Assembly (NCBI GenBank): GCA_002070215.1
Contig: MWCV01000025.1
Coordinates: 1-34,522 of the forward strand
Length of the DNA stretch: 34,522 bases
Source: Chloroflexi bacterium ADurb.Bin180
Lineage (GTDB): Bacteria > Chloroflexota > Anaerolineae > UBA2200
Direction of reading: 5' to 3'
Shown here in pieces: positions 573-17,083 of the stretch. The notes beneath the pieces were generated by a model. It saw nothing but the letters and a program-made list of their open reading frames with translations. It had not been told where the DNA came from and searched no databases. The translations under genes and the position numbers were made by a program. Each line of letters begins with the position of its first letter. The stretch's first letter is position 1.

Positions 573-636
573 CCGGCGGTAAAGGGAATGAGCCGGACTC
601 GCAGGCAGGGAGGGCTCACTGACAAAGGAGGCACGA

Positions 637-3600
637 GTGCCGACAGAGGGATACGCCACGATGGAGTTCCACGTTTCACGCCAGGCTCGTGACCTCTACT
701 CGTTTGATCAAAGCCTGTTCTCGTTGAGCGGCAACGTCGTGCTGGCCAATTTCCTCGCGGCACGCAACTTTGCGCAAAAGATGAACGAGCGGCGGGACCT
801 GGTCCATTTTCCCGAGCGCGCGGTGCGTTCGGGCCAGATCAACGCCATGGGCCTGATTGACGAGATCCTGCACTATGTGGTGGGACTCTACCGCCAGCAG
901 AAGAACCCCGCAGTTATGCAGCAGGCCCTCCAGTTCCTCGACAGCCGGCTGGGCCAAGAGGAGGTGGAGCGAGTGCTGCGCGAATTCGCTGCCGAGTTCC
1001 CTCCGCTGACCGTCTACCGGCGCCAGGTCCCGCTTGACGACTATTTGCACGGCCAAACTGCCGGCGTGCCCAACCGGCAGCTCTTGCTGGAGGAGCTGTC
1101 GCTGCTCTGGCTGGCCAACTCGAACCCTGCCTTCTCTCCTTATGCCGAGCTGTTTGACGACGCCTCCCTCGAAAAGGAAACTGGCTATCGCTCGCTCATC
1201 GCTGCCCTGGGCCAGTTCTTTGAGCAGCAGCCGGGCTTTGGTCCCAACAATCTCCCTCTCATCGAGATGCTGCGTGAGCCGGCAGTGGCCGTGCCGCACT
1301 CGCTCACGGGACAATTGGAGTACATTCGGGAAAAGTGGGGTCAGCTTCTCGGGGGGCTGCGGTTTCGCTTGCTGAGCGGACTGGACCTGGTGGCCGAGGA
1401 AGAAAAGATGCGCCTGTGGGGAGGAGGCGGTCCTGGACCGGGGCCGATCCTCGCCTACGAGTTCTCAACGCAGCAACGCGAAGAGCCGGAACAGTACAGC
1501 CCCGACAAGGACTGGATGCCCCGCGCGGTGCTGATGGCCAAGAGCACCTACGTATGGCTGGACCAGCTCTCGAAAAAGTACCAGCGGCCGGTGAAGCGCC
1601 TGGACCAGATACCCGATGAGGAGCTGGACACACTGGCCAGGTGGGGTTTCACCGGGCTGTGGCTGATCGGCCTGTGGGAACGGAGCAAAGCCTCGCGGCG
1701 CATCAAGCAACTGTGCGGCAAGGCCGATGCGGTCGCCTCAGCCTACTCGCTGCTGGATTATCGCATCGCCGACGACCTGGGCGGCGAGCCGGCCTTTGAG
1801 AACCTGCGCGCCAGGGCACGTCAGAGGGGGCTGCGCCTGGCAGGCGACATGGTACCCAACCACGTGGGGATTGACTCTCCCTGGGTGGTGGAGCACCCGG
1901 ACTGGTTCATCGCCCGTGATGACTGCCCCTTCCCTTCCTACACGTTCAACGGAGAGGATCTCTCGTCTGATGGGCGAGTCGAGATCCATCTGGAGGATCA
2001 CTACTACGACCATACCGATGCCGCGGTGGTATTCAAGCGGCTGGACAGAGCCAGCGGCCACACGACCTACATCTACCACGGCAACGATGGTACGAGCATG
2101 CCCTGGAACGATACGGCGCAGCTCAACTACCTGAATCCCCGGGTGCGCGAGGCGGTGATTCAGACCATACTCCACGTGGCGCACCGCTTCCCCATCATCC
2201 GCTTTGACGCGGCCATGACCTTGAGCAAGAAACACTACCAGCGACTGTGGTTCCCCGAGCCGGGCACGGGCGGCGCCATTCCCACTCGGTCAGAATATGC
2301 ACTGACCCGCCAGCAGTTCGATGCAGCCATGCCGCAAGAGTTTTGGCGCGAAGTGGTGGACCGGGTCGCGCAGGAAGCTCCAGACACACTGCTGCTGGCC
2401 GAGGCCTTCTGGCTAATGGAAGGCTACTTTGTCCGCACACTGGGCATGCACCGCGTCTACAACAGTGCCTTCATGCACATGCTCAAAGCGGAAGACAACG
2501 CCAACTACCGCACCACGATCAAGAACGTGCTCGAGTTCGATCCGGAGATCCTCAAGCGGTTCGTCAACTTTATGAACAACCCGGATGAAGAGACGGCCGT
2601 TGCCCAGTTCGGCAAGGATGACAAGTACTTTGGCGTCTGCACGATGATGGTGACCATGCCGGGTCTGCCGATGTTCGGTCACGGCCAGATCGAGGGGTTC
2701 ACCGAAAAGTACGGCATGGAGTACCGCCGTGCCTACTGGGACGAGCAGCCTGACCCGCACCTCTTGTGGCGGCACGAACGGGAGCTCTTCCCGCTGCTGC
2801 ATCACCGCTACCTGTTCGCCCAGGTCAAGGACTTTTACCTCTATGACTTTTATGCCCCGCAGGGCCACGTCAATGAGGATGTCTTTGCTTACTCTAACCG
2901 TGCCGCCGGCGAGCGAGCGCTCGTGGTCTATCACAATCGCTTTGCCAGCGCGACGGGGTGGATCGGCAAGTCAGTGGCCTATCTCGACAAAGCCAGTGGC
3001 AACAAGGTGCAGAAGAGCCTGGGAGAGGGCCTCGGCCTGCAGAACCAGGACGACTACTTCTGCATCTTCCGCGACCAGGTCAGTGGGCTGGAATACGTTC
3101 GCAGCAGCCGCGAGCTGCACGAAAAGGGACTGTACGTCGAGCTGGGCGCCTACAAGCGCCACGTGTTCCTCGACTGGCGGGAGGTCAAGGACAACGAGTG
3201 GCACCACTATGCCCATCTGGCGGCCTATCTCGATGGCCGCGGTGTGCCCAGCATCGACGAGGCATTGAAGGAGACGTTCCTGCTGCCCATTCATCAGGCC
3301 TTTAAGGAGCTGGCTAACCCAACCAGTTTCCGCCGTCTTCGCCGGGCCCGTGTTTCCGGGACGGAGAAGCAGGTCGACAAGGCGCTGATCGCAGACATCG
3401 AGCACAAGGTTCGCGAACTACTGCGTCAGGCCAGCCGGTTTGCCGGAGTGGCGGACGATTCGGCGGCCCTGGCCGGTGAGATGAGCCGCGAGCTGCAGAC
3501 GATACTGCGCCTGAGTGCGGCCGACAGCAAGCCAACACCCAGAGGGCAACGGACCTGGGAGCGCGATGTTCTGCTGCGCCTGGACGGGGAGTGGGAGTGG

Positions 3601-4176: not shown

Positions 4177-4233
4177 GGCAAAGCAAGGGCCGGTTGACCT
4201 GGCCCTGCGTGTGGTCAGGGTGTGGGAGGTGTT

Positions 4234-4773
4234 ATGGGTCACCGAATCATCCAGATCAACCGGGCGCCAGTTCTCACGCTCTGGGCGGCGGTGGTGGCTG
4301 AAAGGCTGGGCTTTGACGAGCCAGCGGCGCTGACGCTCGGGCGCGCCCTGGCAGGCCTGAACGCCCAGGCAAAGGGCCAGCGCCTGGGGATCTTTCACCC
4401 GCGGGAGCACGGTGACGCAGCCGAGCGCTCCCGCGAGCCCCCTCCGGGGGAGGTGTTTGCGGTCGAGCTGCTGGGGCGCCAGGTGCCGGCGATGAACACG
4501 GAGGAGGGAGTGAGGGCAAGCGCAGGGGGCAAGCCGGCCGACCCGCAGAGCGTGCGCCGCTACCTCGAATCCAAGTTCGGCGCGGATCTGGCCAGCGCGC
4601 GTGAGGCAATGGAGGCTCTGGCCGGTTCTCTGGAACCGGCGGAGCTGGCAGTGAAGGCGTACCCTCTTTATGAGCAGTTCCGCCCCGTAGTGCCGCAGGG
4701 CACAAAGGGCTGGGGCAAAGAGGGCGAACTGGACCTCGACCTCTTGGCTTCACTGGCGCGTAGCAAATCGTGA
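4234..4773 (+). CDS. Conserved-looking unknown protein, 179 residues
   Basis: Follows the amylase-fold gene by 57 bp on the same strand, so the two are probably co-transcribed. GGGAGG (4224-4229) lies 4 nt before this ATG; an in-frame GTG at 4222 would overlap that site and is less likely. The protein is soluble and has no signal peptide or membrane segment. It starts HRIIQINRAPVLTLWAAVVA, followed by an Ala/Leu-rich helical stretch (ERLGFDEPAALTLGRALAGL). A middle part reads as beta strands (VFAVELLGRQVPAM) and the C-terminal ~70 residues as helical, starting SVRRYLESKFG. I recognise no domain. A 6-bp inverted repeat, AGGGCC/GGCCCT (4186-4191 and 4201-4206), sits in the gap before it. Confidence 0.75.
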   Translation: MGHRIIQINRAPVLTLWAAVVAERLGFDEPAALTLGRALAGLNAQAKGQRLGIFHPREHGDAAERSREPPPGEVFAVELLGRQVPAMNTEEGVRASAGGKPADPQSVRRYLESKFGADLASAREAMEALAGSLEPAELAVKAYPLYEQFRPVVPQGTKGWGKEGELDLDLLASLARSKS

Positions 4774-4799: not shown

Positions 4800-5120
4800 T
4801 CAGGCAGTCCAGTGGCGATACAGCCAATTCGCGACTGAAAGCGCCGCTCCAGCAACGAACACCGCCGCGAACGCGATGAACCGGCAAAGCCACAGACCGT
4901 GGTAGGCCGCAACGGCAGGCAGGTGCGGCACATACTGCGTGTAGGCCACCAGATGGCCCATTATGAAGACGACTACTGCGACTGCCGCTACGACCAGCAG
5001 GACCCAGACAGGTGGTTTGCCAATGATGCGCAGCAGCTTGCGAAGAAGCAGCCCATACCACAGCATTGCGCCGGCTAGGAGAAACCATCCGATATCGCCA
5101 ATGATGACTTGGATTGGCAT
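4800..5120 (-). CDS. Small membrane protein, 106 residues, third gene of the roadblock unit
   Basis: Three clear hydrophobic segments: about residues 5-26 (VIIGDIGWFLLAGAMLWYG), 38-60 (VWVLLVVAAVAVVVFIMGHL) and 79-101 (FIAFAAVFVAGAALSVANWL). A basic loop (LLRKLLRIIGK) separates the first two. No catalytic motif is visible and I do not recognise the family. AAAGGAG before the ATG lies inside the end of the upstream gene, which stops only 3 nt earlier, so the two are translationally linked. It is the last gene of a minus-strand unit led by a roadblock/LC7 protein. A role as membrane anchor or sensor for that protein is inference. Confidence 0.7.
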   Translation of the reverse strand: MPIQVIIGDIGWFLLAGAMLWYGLLLRKLLRIIGKPPVWVLLVVAAVAVVVFIMGHLVAYTQYVPHLPAVAAYHGLWLCRFIAFAAVFVAGAALSVANWLYRHWTA

Positions 5121-5123
5121 GGT

Positions 5124-5486
5124 CTACTCGGCTCCTTTCATGATCTGCTCCGCGGTCTTTCTGAATACGTAGGCTCCCCGGAGACAGAGCACGCCGGACA
5201 CAAGGACCAGGGCATAGTTGACCCATTGCTCGGCGAGCGTGAGGCTCCCCCTCGTGGCATAGGCCAAGCCCTGCCAGATGGCATAAACCAGGATGCCCGA
5301 CGGTGCCAGCAGCAGGTACTGCCCGTTGGTTTTACGTCCAAATGTGGTTTCGTACCGAAGAGCGATCAGTCCGATCAGGAAGAAGCCGAACCAGACCAGT
5401 AGCCCGCCGACGACCGATAGCAGCGTCGTCAGGGGGAAGAACAGGAACCTGCCAAGACTCGACAGAGCCGCTTGTGCTTGTTGCAT
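5124..5486 (-). CDS. Small membrane protein, 120 residues, second gene of the roadblock unit
   Basis: The start is the ATG at 5486 because a perfect AAGGAGG (5497-5503) lies 10 nt upstream; a longer in-frame reading to 5543 has no such site and begins with a non-conserved-looking basic stretch. Hydrophobic segments lie at about residues 12-43 (a long one, starting FLFFPLTTLLSVVGGLLVWF), 56-76 (YLLLAPSGILVYAIWQGLAY) and 88-107 (YALVLVSGVLCLRGAYVF). The polar loop RYETTFGRKTNGQ sits between the first two, and the C-terminus is charged. No family is recognised. It lies between the roadblock gene (76 bp upstream) and the 106-residue membrane protein. Confidence 0.7.
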   Translation of the reverse strand: MQQAQAALSSLGRFLFFPLTTLLSVVGGLLVWFGFFLIGLIALRYETTFGRKTNGQYLLLAPSGILVYAIWQGLAYATRGSLTLAEQWVNYALVLVSGVLCLRGAYVFRKTAEQIMKGAE

Positions 5487-5562
5487 CGCTAAGAAACCTC
5501 CTTGCTCCGACGTGTGGCCATTTGATCTGCGCGGGGCGGGCATGCGCCTGACCGGCCCTGCG

Positions 5563-6168
5563 CTATGCGGGAACAGACAGTCTCCTCATCGCCTCTACCG
5601 CGCTCCTGGCCTTGGCCGACCCCACAAACACGGCGAAAGAGCTCTCCAACTGGGGTAGCACTGCCAACAGCTCTTCCCCGGTGAGTGTCTCAGCGGTATG
5701 CCCCTGCTTCTTGAGCAGGCCTTCCAACACTCGCTCCCCGGTAGGTCCCAGGACATCGCGTGCCACAGCGCTCAATGCCGTAACCGGGATGCCTTCCGTG
5801 GGCACCCTGGATGCAGGAGGGGCTGTGATCTTGAGCAGCGGTATGAGCGCCTTGGCGGCCGTCTCAGAGGTGAGGCTCAGCAAAGGGATGTTCACGGTGC
5901 GAACACAGACCATCACCAGGGCGCCCCTCGGCAGTCGTTTGATTAGCAGCCTGCCTTTGGCATAGAGAAGATCCAGATTGCTCACCCTGGCGTGTTTGGC
6001 AGTATGCAGAACGTCCAGCGTCTGGGTGATGGTCCGACACACGGTAGATAGCTGATGGGGGGCGATGGGATCGGTGAATGCGCTGGCGAGGACATCGCCT
6101 TCGTTGCTGCAGACGAATGCACCGAGTACCCCTGGCACATTGCTGATTCTCCTAAGGATGTCCTGCAT
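5563..6168 (-). CDS. Roadblock/LC7-domain protein with a C-terminal extension
   Basis: Residues ~1-105 have the roadblock/LC7 pattern: an N-terminal helix (MQDILRRISNVPGVLGAFVC), then SNEGDVLASAF, a long helix, a beta strand with LLYAKGRLLIKRLPRGALVM and a final helix (TAAKALIPLL). This family includes MglB-type regulators of Ras-like GTPases. After a short linker, residues ~125-200 form a second small helical domain (ARDVLGPTGERVLEGLLKKQ) that I do not recognise. The ATG at 6168 has AGAGAGG 8 nt upstream and starts right at the domain. A longer frame with ATG at 6249 exists, but that ATG coincides with a candidate -10 box. No Ras-like GTPase gene is in the window. It heads a minus-strand unit with two membrane proteins. 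Confidence 0.75.
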   Translation of the reverse strand: MQDILRRISNVPGVLGAFVCSNEGDVLASAFTDPIAPHQLSTVCRTITQTLDVLHTAKHARVSNLDLLYAKGRLLIKRLPRGALVMVCVRTVNIPLLSLTSETAAKALIPLLKITAPPASRVPTEGIPVTALSAVARDVLGPTGERVLEGLLKKQGHTAETLTGEELLAVLPQLESSFAVFVGSAKARSAVEAMRRLSVPA

Positions 6169-6244
6169 TTGGCCGTCCTCTCTGTGATCGAGAAGGGCTT
6201 GGATCTCAGGCGCCGCTGCGCGGCTCTCTTCTTGGTCTGGTGAA

Positions 6245-6273
6245 AGCATACACAAGAACTGCCAAAGATGCAA
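6245..6273 (-). promoter_or_regulatory. Candidate promoter for the roadblock unit
   Basis: On the minus strand, TTGCAT (6268-6273), a 17-bp spacer and TATGCT (6245-6250). Transcription would start near 6238, about 70 nt before the ATG at 6168. If real, it excludes the longer protein start at 6249. Confidence 0.4.
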
Positions 6274-6461
6274 ATTGGTTGCAGAATAGACGCGAGTTAG
6301 TTGCAGCCAGGGCGGCAATGGTCTGTCTGTACTGCGGGCTGCCTCGACAGAGGCGGTTTGACAATGGCCAGGTGCAAAGATAGAATCGAGATGGGCTGAT
6401 TCAGGTCACTGCGCAGGAAGCACACCTGACCAGGCAGCCCTTCTCGCCTGCCTCCCTTTCC

Positions 6462-6881
6462 GGTTCCACCTCAAGGACTCATCCGGACCAGAGCGGCACG
6501 TACGACGATAACGATGAGGCCAGGAAGGATACCATCGCGAACCTGGACCGGCTCTACGCTCTGCAGGAGATGATGTATGGCCAGAGGAGGAAGGCCCTGC
6601 AGAGCGTTCTTCAGAGTATGGACATAGCCGGGAAGGACGGGACGATCAAACGGGTAGTTGGTGCGTTCAACCCGCAGGGTGTTCAAGTACACGGGTTCAA
6701 GGTGCCGAGTGCCGACGAGCTGGCTCGCGACTAGCTTGCTCCCTGGTACGCAATGCCCGCCAACAACAAGTGGTATCGCACCCTGGCTGTGTCAACGATT
6801 CTGGTCAATACGCTGGACGAGATGGACCTGCGTTGCCCTGACCCCGCAAGTCCCACAAGATCAACAAGGCGGTGCCGATTG
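6462..6881 (+). pseudogene. Broken polyphosphate kinase 2 (PPK2) gene with its middle deleted
   Basis: The first part (about 6477-6731) reads through DRLYALQEMMYGQRRKAL, then the Walker A region MDIAGKDGTIKRVVGAFNPQ and FKVPSADELARD, all diagnostic of PPK2-family polyphosphate kinases. It then meets TAG (6732-6734). Directly after, in the same frame, comes the family's C-terminal end: LAPWYAMPANNKWYRTLAV and ILVNTLDEMDLRCPDP. In intact PPK2 roughly 120 residues, including Walker B and the lid, lie between these parts, so an internal deletion has joined them. No start codon is seen. An adjacent frame upstream reads FRFHLKD (6458-6478), like the family's N-terminal LKD segment, which suggests a frameshift near 6478 too. 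The Gly usually before MD in Walker A is Ser. The boundaries given are approximate. Confidence 0.8.
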
Positions 6882-7832
6882 ATGGCAGACGTAGGCTTGC
6901 TACTCGATTCGACTACAACGCTGCCTTCTGGCCTGGGCGCAGAACATGGGATCACCATGATCCCGGTGCCCATCTATGCTGGAGGCAGAGAGTACCGGGA
7001 CGGAATCGACATCGATGAGGAGGGTTTCCTGCGGCTGCTGGAGGGATCGAAGGACAGACCTTCAACGGCCGTGCCCGGGCCAGGAGAGTTTGTTTCCTGG
7101 TATCGGCAGGTGCTGCGCGATCACCTCTGTGTGGTCTATCCCATCGCCAGCAGGCGCCTGTCTGGCCTGTTCAACGCCGCGGTGCAGGCGGGCCTGAGCG
7201 TACCGGGAGCTGCGGTGGTCGCCATTGATCCGGCTGAGGGCGAGGTGGATGGGGTGGTGGCGGTTCATACTGATGCCGCGGATCTGAAACGGGAGTTGGC
7301 CAGGGTGGCTGCTCTTCCGCCGCCGGTGGTGGTTGTGCAAAACACCGACTCGGTGGCCGGAGGAGTAGGGCTGATTGTGATGCGCGCCTGCGAAGCCATC
7401 GCGTCGGGAGCTGCTCTGGACAAGGTCCTGGCAGAGATGATCGCCAGCAAGAGAACCCTGCAATTGCACTTTGTTCTCCCCACTCTGGACTATGTTGTGG
7501 ACCGGGTTGGCCACCTGCGGGCGTTTTTCGGCACTGTGCTCGACATCAAGCCGGTGATGGCTCTGGAGAACGGCCTGGTTGAGGACGTGGCCAGGGTGCG
7601 CGGGTGGGCCAAGGCCAAGCGAAAGATGTTGGAACTGGCGGCTCAAAGCGTGCATGGCAGACAGGTCGACCTGTCGATCCTCCATTCACTGGCTCCCGAC
7701 GAAGCCCAGCAGTTGCTGGAGGACGCCAGGGCCAGCTTCAACGTGCGTCGCTCCTGGCTGACGGGCATCGGCTGCACAGTGAGTCGCTATACTGGCCGGG
7801 GGGGACTGGGGATCGCTACTTCGGAAGTCTGA
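6882..7832 (+). CDS. DegV-family (fatty-acid-binding, FakB-like) protein, 316 residues
   Basis: DegV/FakB proteins bind a single fatty acid, and in Firmicutes present it to the FakA kinase. The N-terminal signature is DSTTTLPSGLGAEHGITMIP, followed by YRDGIDIDEEGF, a PSTAVPGPGEF segment equivalent to PTTSQPSPGEF, and ASRRLSGLFNAA, where family members usually have SSxLSGTYQSA. The C-terminal half carries DTDSVAGGVGLIV, LPTLDYVVDRVGHLRAF and a terminal fatty-acid pocket region. The start is the ATG at 6882, giving MADVGLLLDS, the normal family start. The frame is open further upstream only because the PPK2 relic happens to be in phase. Only a weak AAGGCGG site (6865-6871) precedes it. No fakA is in the window, so a kinase-dependent role is unproven. 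Its stop lies 1 nt from the end of the convergent ABC gene. Confidence 0.85.
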   Translation: MADVGLLLDSTTTLPSGLGAEHGITMIPVPIYAGGREYRDGIDIDEEGFLRLLEGSKDRPSTAVPGPGEFVSWYRQVLRDHLCVVYPIASRRLSGLFNAAVQAGLSVPGAAVVAIDPAEGEVDGVVAVHTDAADLKRELARVAALPPPVVVVQNTDSVAGGVGLIVMRACEAIASGAALDKVLAEMIASKRTLQLHFVLPTLDYVVDRVGHLRAFFGTVLDIKPVMALENGLVEDVARVRGWAKAKRKMLELAAQSVHGRQVDLSILHSLAPDEAQQLLEDARASFNVRRSWLTGIGCTVSRYTGRGGLGIATSEV

Positions 7833-14458: not shown

Positions 14459-14557
14459 GGCCGAAGAGGAGAGTGTGGAAAAAGCGGGCGAGAGATGGGA
14501 GCACCCTGGTGCCTGTGCCTGGTAGTGCCAAGACTCCGGGCAACTACAGACCTCGAT

Positions 14558-14646
14558 AGGTTCGTAGTACAGGCTTTAGCCTGTCCCCACCCACTGACGC
14601 GGTGAGACCGTCCGGAAGGGGAGCGCTAAAGCGCAACTACGAACCT
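14558..14646. repeat. 89-bp palindromic REP/MITE-like element
   Basis: Perfect 11-bp terminal inverted repeats AGGTTCGTAGT (14558-14568) and ACTACGAACCT (14636-14646). Inside are two hairpins: the palindrome ACAGGCTTTAGCCTGT (14569-14584) and GCGCTAAAGCGC (14623-14634). The stretches TTTAGCCTGTCCCC and GGGGAGCGCTAAA are themselves nearly complementary, so the whole unit can fold into one long arm. It lies in the gap between the 5' end of the glycosidase-like gene and the 3' end of the GT39 gene. There is no coding capacity. Only one copy was noticed in this window; a dispersed family is expected but not shown. Confidence 0.65.
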
Positions 14647-14668
14647 GTCGTTCACGCTCCCTGGGCAG

Positions 14669-17083
14669 TTATTCCACACTCTCAAGAGGGAACGTCCCGA
14701 GAACGACGCGGTCGGCAGTGGGGCCGCCGGTGGCGGTGACTTTGAGTCGCTCCATCGTCTCCAGCAGATACATACCCACTTCCAGCTCGTAATCGCCGGG
14801 CGGCGCGTCTGGGGGCACGACCAGGGTGTGCCGGTCGAGAATCACCTGATCGACAAACCACTGCTGGGTGGGATAGCCGCCATTCACTGGCTCGCCGTCG
14901 TGCCCCGCCCATAGGGGACCATTGGTGGCCGGATTAAAGGCCGTGCCTATCAGGTGGGCAAAGACCGTGTAGCCCGGGCCGAGCTTGACGTTGGCGCGCC
15001 AGTACAGGTCGAGGGTCAGGGTCTGCCCGGGCCTTATCGCGTCAACTGGCTTGCCCTGTGTGTCAGACAGCGCGTAGCCCAGCAGCTCGATGCGCCCTCC
15101 AAGAGTGGCGCGGCGAGCGACGGGTACTGTTCTAATCTGCTGCAGAGCGGCAGTCCCGTTGATGATGACCTCGCCCAGATTGATGGCCTGTTCACCGTCT
15201 GACTGAATGACAAAATGGTACCGGCCAGCCGGCGTGGCTGGATAGACATGGAACTGGGCCAGCAGTCGGCCCTGTTCCGTCGCGGCGACGGGGACATTTC
15301 GCGATTCGAGTACGCGTCCTCTGACGTCGGCCAGACTCGCAGTCAACTCGACCGGCTGAGCGGCCGCATAGTAGACAGCGGCAGCGACGGTATCACCGGG
15401 CCGGAACTCACGCGTCAATAGGTCGTAGCCGGTGCAAGTCACGCCCGGGGCAAGCGCGGCGTTCATCGCGTGCTGTGGCGCGAGGTTGACGGCCTGCGGC
15501 TGGGCCACAGAGGAGTTGGAAGCATACAGGGTCAGGGAGTCGTAGCCGCTGTTGATCCGGATAGTGCTGGTGAGGTGCGCGTTCAGCCAGGCCACGGCCA
15601 GGGAATCGGGATCCTGCAACGTGGCGCCAACCTGAGCCAGCCAGAAACGGGAATACTGTGAAACCAGAGGCGCCAGCTCGGCGTCGACGTTCTGCGCGGT
15701 GATGAACAACGCTCCACTGGGCACCTGATGCACTGGCGGGAGGTAGGTGGACGCCGGTAGCCGGTAGTAGTAATACTCAAAGAGCGGGTAGCGGTTCCCT
15801 GAAAGGAGCAGCACGGCATCGCCTGGCTCAGCATAAGCGGCGATGGTACGCACCAGGGTCTGTCCCTCGTCACGCAGGTAGCGTCCCTGATAGTGACCGG
15901 GCAGGGTCCAGGCAAAGAGACCCAGGACGAGCACCACGGCCAGCAGGCCCAGTTTTGGTGCGTATTGGTGCAATGAGTGCAGGCTCCAGGCCAGCAGCAG
16001 GTAGAAGGCCGGCGCGAAGAGCACCAGGTAGCGGGCCTCAACCCGCGGTGCATAGAACAGCCCGCGAGGCAGGGTGAGCAAATAGACGATCAGCGCCGGC
16101 ACAGCCAGCATCATGAGCAGCAAGGCCACGATCAGGCGAGCCGATGGCGAGCCGGGGGCGACAGGGGCGGCGTTGTCTGCTGGAGCGACATCGTTCCTCG
16201 CCGGACCCTTCATCCACTGCAGCAGGACTCCCAGCCCGACAATGGCGACAAAAGGAGCGACCAACAGGGTATAGTGCTCTACATAAGTGGAGATGCCCAG
16301 GGTCAGCAGGGTCGCGTAGAGGCGCAGGAAGGTGCCAGAGGCGAACGGCTCAGCCACCGACCAGGAGCGCATGCTCCTGGTCGCCAGAACCAGCCACGGC
16401 AGAAAACTCAAGACCGCCACAAGCTGAGACGTTACCCAGGGACCGAGGATTCCCCACCGTCTGTGGCCCGGAGCCCTGAGCAGCAGGATCAGCAAGACCA
16501 GGTTCTGGACGAGGATGACCGTGACGAACAGGTAGAGCGAATAGAGCCCCAGCACGGTGAACAGAACATAGAGCAGAGGCCATTTCCAGGGACGGGCTGC
16601 ATTGGAGGGCGGGGTACCTGGCCACCAGCCGGCGCTCTGGCACCACCGGCAAAAGGCATAGAGCGAGAATACCCCCCACAGGGTCGCCAGGATGTACATA
16701 CGCAGCTCCTGCGACCACCATACGTGAAAGCGAGAGACGGCCATCAGGGCCGCCGCCAGCAGCGCAACCCGTTTGCCGAGCAGTGTCTTGCCCAGGAGGT
16801 AGAGCCCGGCCACGGTGATGACCCCGTAGATGAGGGACAGGAACCGGGCGGCAAGCTCGGTCTCTCCGACCAGAGAAACCCAGGCCTTGAGCAGCCAGAA
16901 AAAGAGCGGAGGGTGGACATCGGCGGCAGTCCACAGGGTCATCTCGGTCCAGCCGCGCCGGATGGCCCAGAAGGCGAGGCCTTCATCCCACCAGATGTTC
17001 TGACTACCGAGCAGCCAGACTCTAAGGGCGAAGGAAGCCAGGAGTATGGCGATGAGCCCCGCTAGTTCAAGCCGCCTGCTCAT
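14669..17083 (-). CDS. GT39/ArnT-like membrane glycosyltransferase, 804 residues
   Basis: Polytopic protein of the GT-C fold (dolichyl/polyprenyl-phosphate-sugar dependent mannosyl- or arabinosyltransferase type). The first loop after helix 1 has WWDEG with the catalytic acidic pair Asp33-Glu34, followed by DVHPPLFFW (55-63), both typical of the PMT/ArnT group. About ten to twelve membrane helices fill residues 8-400. The remaining ~400 residues are soluble and extracytoplasmic. They end in a beta-sandwich-like module (GYTVFAHLIG, AGHDGEPVNGGYPTQQW, PPGDYELEVGMYL) often seen at the C-terminus of such proteins. The ATG at 17083 lies inside the 3' end of the preceding gene (17-nt overlap), so translation is coupled; a longer frame to 17128 is less likely. 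Acceptor unknown; envelope glycan or protein glycosylation is likely. Confidence 0.85.
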   Translation of the reverse strand: MSRRLELAGLIAILLASFALRVWLLGSQNIWWDEGLAFWAIRRGWTEMTLWTAADVHPPLFFWLLKAWVSLVGETELAARFLSLIYGVITVAGLYLLGKTLLGKRVALLAAALMAVSRFHVWWSQELRMYILATLWGVFSLYAFCRWCQSAGWWPGTPPSNAARPWKWPLLYVLFTVLGLYSLYLFVTVILVQNLVLLILLLRAPGHRRWGILGPWVTSQLVAVLSFLPWLVLATRSMRSWSVAEPFASGTFLRLYATLLTLGISTYVEHYTLLVAPFVAIVGLGVLLQWMKGPARNDVAPADNAAPVAPGSPSARLIVALLLMMLAVPALIVYLLTLPRGLFYAPRVEARYLVLFAPAFYLLLAWSLHSLHQYAPKLGLLAVVLVLGLFAWTLPGHYQGRYLRDEGQTLVRTIAAYAEPGDAVLLLSGNRYPLFEYYYYRLPASTYLPPVHQVPSGALFITAQNVDAELAPLVSQYSRFWLAQVGATLQDPDSLAVAWLNAHLTSTIRINSGYDSLTLYASNSSVAQPQAVNLAPQHAMNAALAPGVTCTGYDLLTREFRPGDTVAAAVYYAAAQPVELTASLADVRGRVLESRNVPVAATEQGRLLAQFHVYPATPAGRYHFVIQSDGEQAINLGEVIINGTAALQQIRTVPVARRATLGGRIELLGYALSDTQGKPVDAIRPGQTLTLDLYWRANVKLGPGYTVFAHLIGTAFNPATNGPLWAGHDGEPVNGGYPTQQWFVDQVILDRHTLVVPPDAPPGDYELEVGMYLLETMERLKVTATGGPTADRVVLGTFPLESVE

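Follow-up and report, generated by a model that had tools for sequence, protein, structure and literature searches.

Upstream of an intact degV gene, the window (the whole stretch of DNA analysed, 34,522 nucleotides) carries what look like the two ends of a polyphosphate kinase 2 (PPK2) gene around a single TAG codon, which raises the question of whether a gene has been lost here, whether its tail now belongs to a DegV protein, and how the other polyphosphate enzymes of this bacterium have fared. Polyphosphate is a phosphate storage polymer. The window's own genome (G000) is a draft of 3.1 Mb in 170 contigs with a completeness of 95.36%, and the only genome of the same genus in the comparison list is that of Anaerolineales bacterium UBA2200 (G001; 88% complete, 3% contamination; PPK2 on contig DCVA01000048.1). 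Judged from sequence, we consider window positions 6426-6879 to be a PPK2 pseudogene, with a probability of about 0.9.

Identity of the two pieces and the same locus in relatives

The similarity of both pieces to PPK2 is far above chance. The part upstream of the TAG matches the family profile PF03976 with an E-value of 1.9e-12 over model positions 3-74, and the tail with 8.1e-4 over positions 196-226, a match that taken alone lies below Pfam's curated cut-off. With TIGR03709 (PPK2_rel_1) the first part gives 1.5e-21, the tail 8.3e-11 and both together 3.1e-33. Frame 0 of the window reads ...TYDDNDEARKDT...MDIAGKDGTIKRVVGAFNPQGVQVHGFKVPSADELARD, then TAG, then LAPWYAMPANNKWYRTLAVSTILVNTLDEMDLRCPDP; frame reading and profiles thus agree with the preliminary description of this locus, according to which the start half and the end of a PPK2 lie in one frame around one stop codon. 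A PDB search returned 16 distinct sequences at E-values up to 1, and three of the alignments each consist of two separate stretches that skip the middle (e.g., residues 30-105 and 220-254 of the 6aqe chain). Used as a query, the G001 PPK2 retrieves only two pieces from G000 (residues 3-105 and 223-260), both at this locus. The G000 assembly contains no second PF03976 match, and hence the missing middle of PPK2 does not lie on another assembled contig. Descent from PPK2 is evident from a significant profile match in two pieces, and the MDIAGKDG motif expected of a working enzyme, which we take to be the Walker A motif, is kept. The relic lacks a complete PPK2 domain, which would fill about 229 model positions in a single open frame: the TAG separates the pieces and the deletion spans PF03976 positions of about 75-195, so that nothing enzyme-like could be made from either half. 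The relic therefore resembles the PPK2 family (TIGR03709/PF03976, polyphosphate:nucleotide phosphotransferases) at both ends, Walker A included, but differs from it in having lost 117 middle codons, its start codon and, near either end, the reading frame.

Among the six members of the family in the comparison list, PPK2 is intact in G001 and G003, a relic in G000 and absent from G002, G004 and G005; PPK2 is thus often lost or missing in this group, and the locus in the window is one case with remains. The intact G001 gene encodes 268 aa (L014 1417-2223) and is followed 14 nt past its stop by degV (L014 2238), and that of G003, 70% identical, lies directly 5' of the G003 degV. Gene order is kept between the window and G001: a large amylase-like gene and the gene for a 183-aa protein precede the site, and two ABC transporters (83-84% identity) follow it, which identifies the two as the same locus. 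The comparison with close relatives that had been proposed as a check therefore finds an intact PPK2 before degV in both G001 and G003, and the relic is a PPK2 gene of the TIGR03709 group that formerly stood directly 5' of degV. Two hallmarks of a pseudogene are present, namely an intact copy at the equivalent place in relatives and more than one disabling change (deletion, TAG, indels and start position). Upstream of degV in G002 and G004, the search for PPK2 traces gave chance-level matches only. The idea of a general PPK2-degV operon finds no support outside the family: PPK2 accompanies 2 of 62 DegV loci, which are those of G001 and G003 themselves, and no DegV match lies in the flanks covered for the closest PPK2 loci at class level (about 47-56% identical). 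A first scan of the genome contigs with a single protein gave no match, and no prior description of DegV together with PPK2 was found in the open-licence literature.

The region directly upstream differs between the two genomes. In G001 the 183-aa gene and PPK2 are adjacent, with about 30 bases between them. Of the three ORFs found in the window at this place (Table 1), two have no Pfam match and the 251-aa ORF has a weak Roadblock/LC7 match; if they represent an insertion, PPK2-degV may thereby have been separated from an upstream promoter.

Lesions of the gene and the open frame into degV

The lesions were read from the alignment with G001, and the exact positions of the indels depend on this alignment. 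Compared to the G001 gene, 351 nt (117 codons) are missing in frame at about 6732/6733. Decay by an internal deletion, as claimed earlier, is borne out by the profiles, the PDB matches and the alignment, although its size, first given as about 120 residues, is corrected to 117 codons. At the deletion edges G001 has the codons GAC TAT (left) and GAG CAC (right), and the TAG is thus most simply explained as a deletion scar in which the TA- of Tyr was joined to the -G of Glu, which would account for the stop without a second event. Further upstream, a cluster of indels (about +1 at 6446, -2 near 6455 and -2 near 6480) places FRFHLKD (within 6455-6478) in another frame; the preliminary description had noticed this disturbance and ascribed it to one frameshift near 6478, where the alignment instead gives a cluster over 6446-6480. 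The trace of the gene, first placed from 6440, extends back to 6426, the start codon position, which is CTG in the window and ATG in G001. Beyond about 6844 the relic changes frame once more and the original PPK2 stop is gone, as a consequence of which the tail is open into degV by accident. In the proposed course of events, PPK2 would have been lost through the in-frame internal deletion, additional indels and the disappearance of its start codon. That the assembler or a mixture of strains produced the deletion and frame changes, the organism's PPK2 being intact, has in its favor that G000 is a draft in 170 contigs judged from the assembly alone. However, several independent lesions are spread across the gene, the flanking genes are intact and ordered as in G001, and the assembly holds no further PPK2 fragment, which makes such an error very improbable.

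Whereas PPK2 has decayed, degV is intact and still under selection. The 359-aa open frame that joins the PPK2 tail to DegV is read as an annotation artefact and not as a fusion protein. Its ATG at 6753 corresponds to an isoleucine position in G001, where a stop codon intervenes and degV has a start of its own, and relatives begin DegV at the position of ATG 6882. Rather than both domains complete in one frame, 6753-7832 contains only the last 30 or so residues of PPK2, and we know of no function for 30-odd PPK2 residues without the rest of the protein. A real fusion, translated with a co-opted tail, could draw on the 147 nt over which the tail is open into degV and on the 75% identity to G001 that the tail keeps across 36 codons. 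We nevertheless regard it as highly implausible, even more so than an assembly error, because relatives encode two separate proteins, the last tail codons 5' of degV are frame-shifted relative to PPK2, and the ORF matches DegV from residue 48 onwards, about the normal DegV start. That the tail lies in frame with degV and yields a misleading 359-residue ORF had been anticipated, and the ORF list, profiles and alignment agree. In the region 6200-7000 one promoter match was found where 0.1 is expected in shuffles. Transcription from this candidate promoter now likely runs across the relic into degV, the relic probably being just a transcribed leader between the two.

Table 1. Features at the degV locus of the window and at the rpsB locus of the genomes compared (positions refer to the window unless a contig is named)
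Feature	Position	Strand	Remarks
183-aa conserved protein gene	4222..4773	+	G001 counterpart directly 5' of PPK2; about 1.6 kb apart here
Three ORFs (106, 139 and 251 aa)	4800..6318	-	Absent between the corresponding G001 genes
Sigma-70-like promoter match (TTGACA-17-TAGAAT, 11/12)	6358..6386	+	39 bases 5' of the old start position
Putative PPK2 relic, N-terminal part	6426..6731	+	CTG at start position, indels 6446-6480, then open with Walker A (MDIAGKDG) to ELARD
In-frame TAG on the junction of the 351-nt internal deletion	6732..6734	+	From alignment with G001 and junction context
Putative PPK2 relic, C-terminal part (APWYAMPANNKWYRTLAV...DLRCPDP)	6735..6879	+	Frame change after about 6844, original stop lost
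359-aa open frame, PPK2 tail + DegV	6753..7832	+	Read as annotation artefact by comparison with G001
Intact degV (DegV family), 316 aa	6882..7832	+	68% identical to G001 counterpart
G001 block			rpsB, CYTH-CHAD, Ppx (exopolyphosphatase), phosphodiesterase-HD, PPK1, sugar transferase, SBBP-like, thiF-like
G003 block			thiF-like, sugar transferase, phosphodiesterase-HD, two PPK2 genes, CYTH-CHAD, rpsB
G000 CYTH-only ORF, 219 aa	contig C106 (3333 bases) 614-1273		PF01928 E 2.2e-14, no CHAD
G000 sugar transferase gene end	C106 1285-1986	-	11 bases past the CYTH ORF; then SBBP-like gene end

Age and tempo of the decay

Over 113 comparable codons, 53 of the 91 nucleotide differences between the relic and G001 fall at third positions, and the pN/pS of this pair is 0.30 (0.20-0.45), against 0.31 for degV and 0.30 for the intact PPK2 pair of G001 and G003. 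Because both measures resemble those of an intact gene pair, most of the divergence is older than the loss of PPK2, which supports the earlier description of the loss as recent, relative to the split from G001. With G003 as the outgroup, amino-acid changes in G000 and G001 number 18:8 in PPK2 and 15:26 in degV (Fisher p 0.013). For PPK2 (113 codons), 26 codons in which all three differ or only G003 differs and 61 identical ones were left out, and for degV (316 codons) 145 and 130, respectively. However, third positions are equally skewed (30:8 in PPK2 versus 44:52 in degV, p 0.0005), meaning that the G000 excess in the relic is not specific to amino-acid constraint and that the rate test does not distinguish an accelerated relic from an unusually similar G001-G003 pair. 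At synonymous sites of PPK2, pS is 0.50 for G001-G003 and 0.59 for G001-relic, and the lower value would also follow from a transfer of the PPK2 gene into G001. Base composition was also considered as a decay clock and is uninformative, the GC3 of the relic being hardly lower than that of G001 (0.752 versus 0.779).

The rpsB locus and the wider polyphosphate gene set

The loss of one polyphosphate enzyme, as first described, holds for PPK2 but is too modest an account, since PPK1, Ppx and CHAD are likewise unmatched in G000. Among seven genomes, PP_kinase (PF02503; PPK1) and Ppx-GppA (PF02541) match only in G001, PPK1 thus being without a match in the other relatives examined as well, and CHAD (PF05235) matches only in G001 and G003. 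In G001 these genes form a block near rpsB (Table 1; rpsB, tsf, pyrH, frr, SBBP-like and thiF-like are presumptive names). In G001, about 6.5 kb separate the end of the CYTH match (about 4643) from the sugar transferase (about 11131), and the corresponding CYTH-sugar transferase junction of G000 lies within one contig. The link between C106 and rpsB (contig C78, 75 identical bases) falls inside a repeat, and gene order is its main support. Given a CYTH stub in G000 where G001 and G003 have CYTH-CHAD, CHAD was lost in G000, whereas the absence of PPK1 and Ppx may have arisen through loss there or through gain in G001. In the former case, a stretch with CHAD, Ppx, phosphodiesterase-HD and PPK1 would have gone from the rpsB locus, leaving the CYTH-only stub. 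In the latter, the PPK2 relic alone would represent a private decay in G000, as the presence of PPK1 and Ppx in G001 only, among seven genomes, would suggest. This is the less likely course, though one to be reckoned with, because a fused CYTH-CHAD by rpsB, with phosphodiesterase-HD and sugar transferase nearby, is common to G001 and G003, and the CYTH stub at the equivalent place shows that G000 has lost at least CHAD. That the G000 lineage lost the known polyphosphate toolkit at two loci is thus the reading we favor, with some reserve. The most likely cause is obsolescence: with no polyphosphate made or managed by PPK1, Ppx and CHAD, a polyphosphate-spending PPK2 would have been without use.

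Several other observations concern these loci. In G003 (L059 6301-10297) a tandem PPK2 pair lies beside CYTH-CHAD near rpsB, where G001 has PPK1 and Ppx, and polyphosphate genes at this locus hence vary among relatives. A gene combining a calcineurin-like phosphoesterase with the Ppx/GppA HD domain III, without the Ppx catalytic domain, is found in G001 (L050 7540-8841) and G003 (L059 4855-6240); in both, this phosphoesterase-HD fusion sits inside the polyphosphate block. The window further contains a 216-base repeat with matching inverted ends (14469-14684, GAGAGTGTGGAA...TTCCACACTCTC) that agrees at 98% with bases 1-216 of C106 (L074) and recurs in part near either end of C78 (L058). The repeat coincides with contig breaks and has the appearance of a small non-autonomous mobile element.

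As such, the PPK2 relic is a case of ordinary gene loss, and pseudogenes built in this way are already known; a prior description was not found among the open-licence papers listed for PPK2 pseudogenes or for PPK1/PPK2 in Chloroflexi. Two papers provide a wider context. Bacteria without polyphosphate metabolism are described as exclusively host-associated (PMC5932413, accessible text). Like the bacteria without PPK1 and PPK2 in that text, G000 has no intact PPK1 or PPK2 that we could find, but at 3.1 Mb it is not obviously reduced (a statement on genome size, not habitat), and its loss remains visible. In Acidithiobacillus, ppk and CHAD are neighbors (PMC10892726, accessible text), an arrangement that G001 resembles in having CYTH-CHAD, Ppx and PPK1 together and from which G000 retains the CYTH part alone. 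For annotation, the locus carries a warning, as the 359-aa ORF may be recorded as a PPK2-DegV fusion. Moreover, PF03976 matches 27 of the 60 genomes compared, a count in which G000 figures through its relic; scoring above the cut-off, the relic makes G000 PPK2-positive and inflates PPK2 tallies.

In all, the evidence is about evenly poised on the broadest reading, in which one species of a genus related to Anaerolineales has PPK1, Ppx, CYTH-CHAD and PPK2 and a congener of ordinary genome size lost all of them by deletions at two loci that left scars, and would thus be a non-reduced bacterium without known polyphosphate enzymes. The main value of the finding lies in these two species, of which one has the known toolkit and the other lacks it, as a modest natural experiment that lets one ask what takes over the role of the polyphosphate toolkit.
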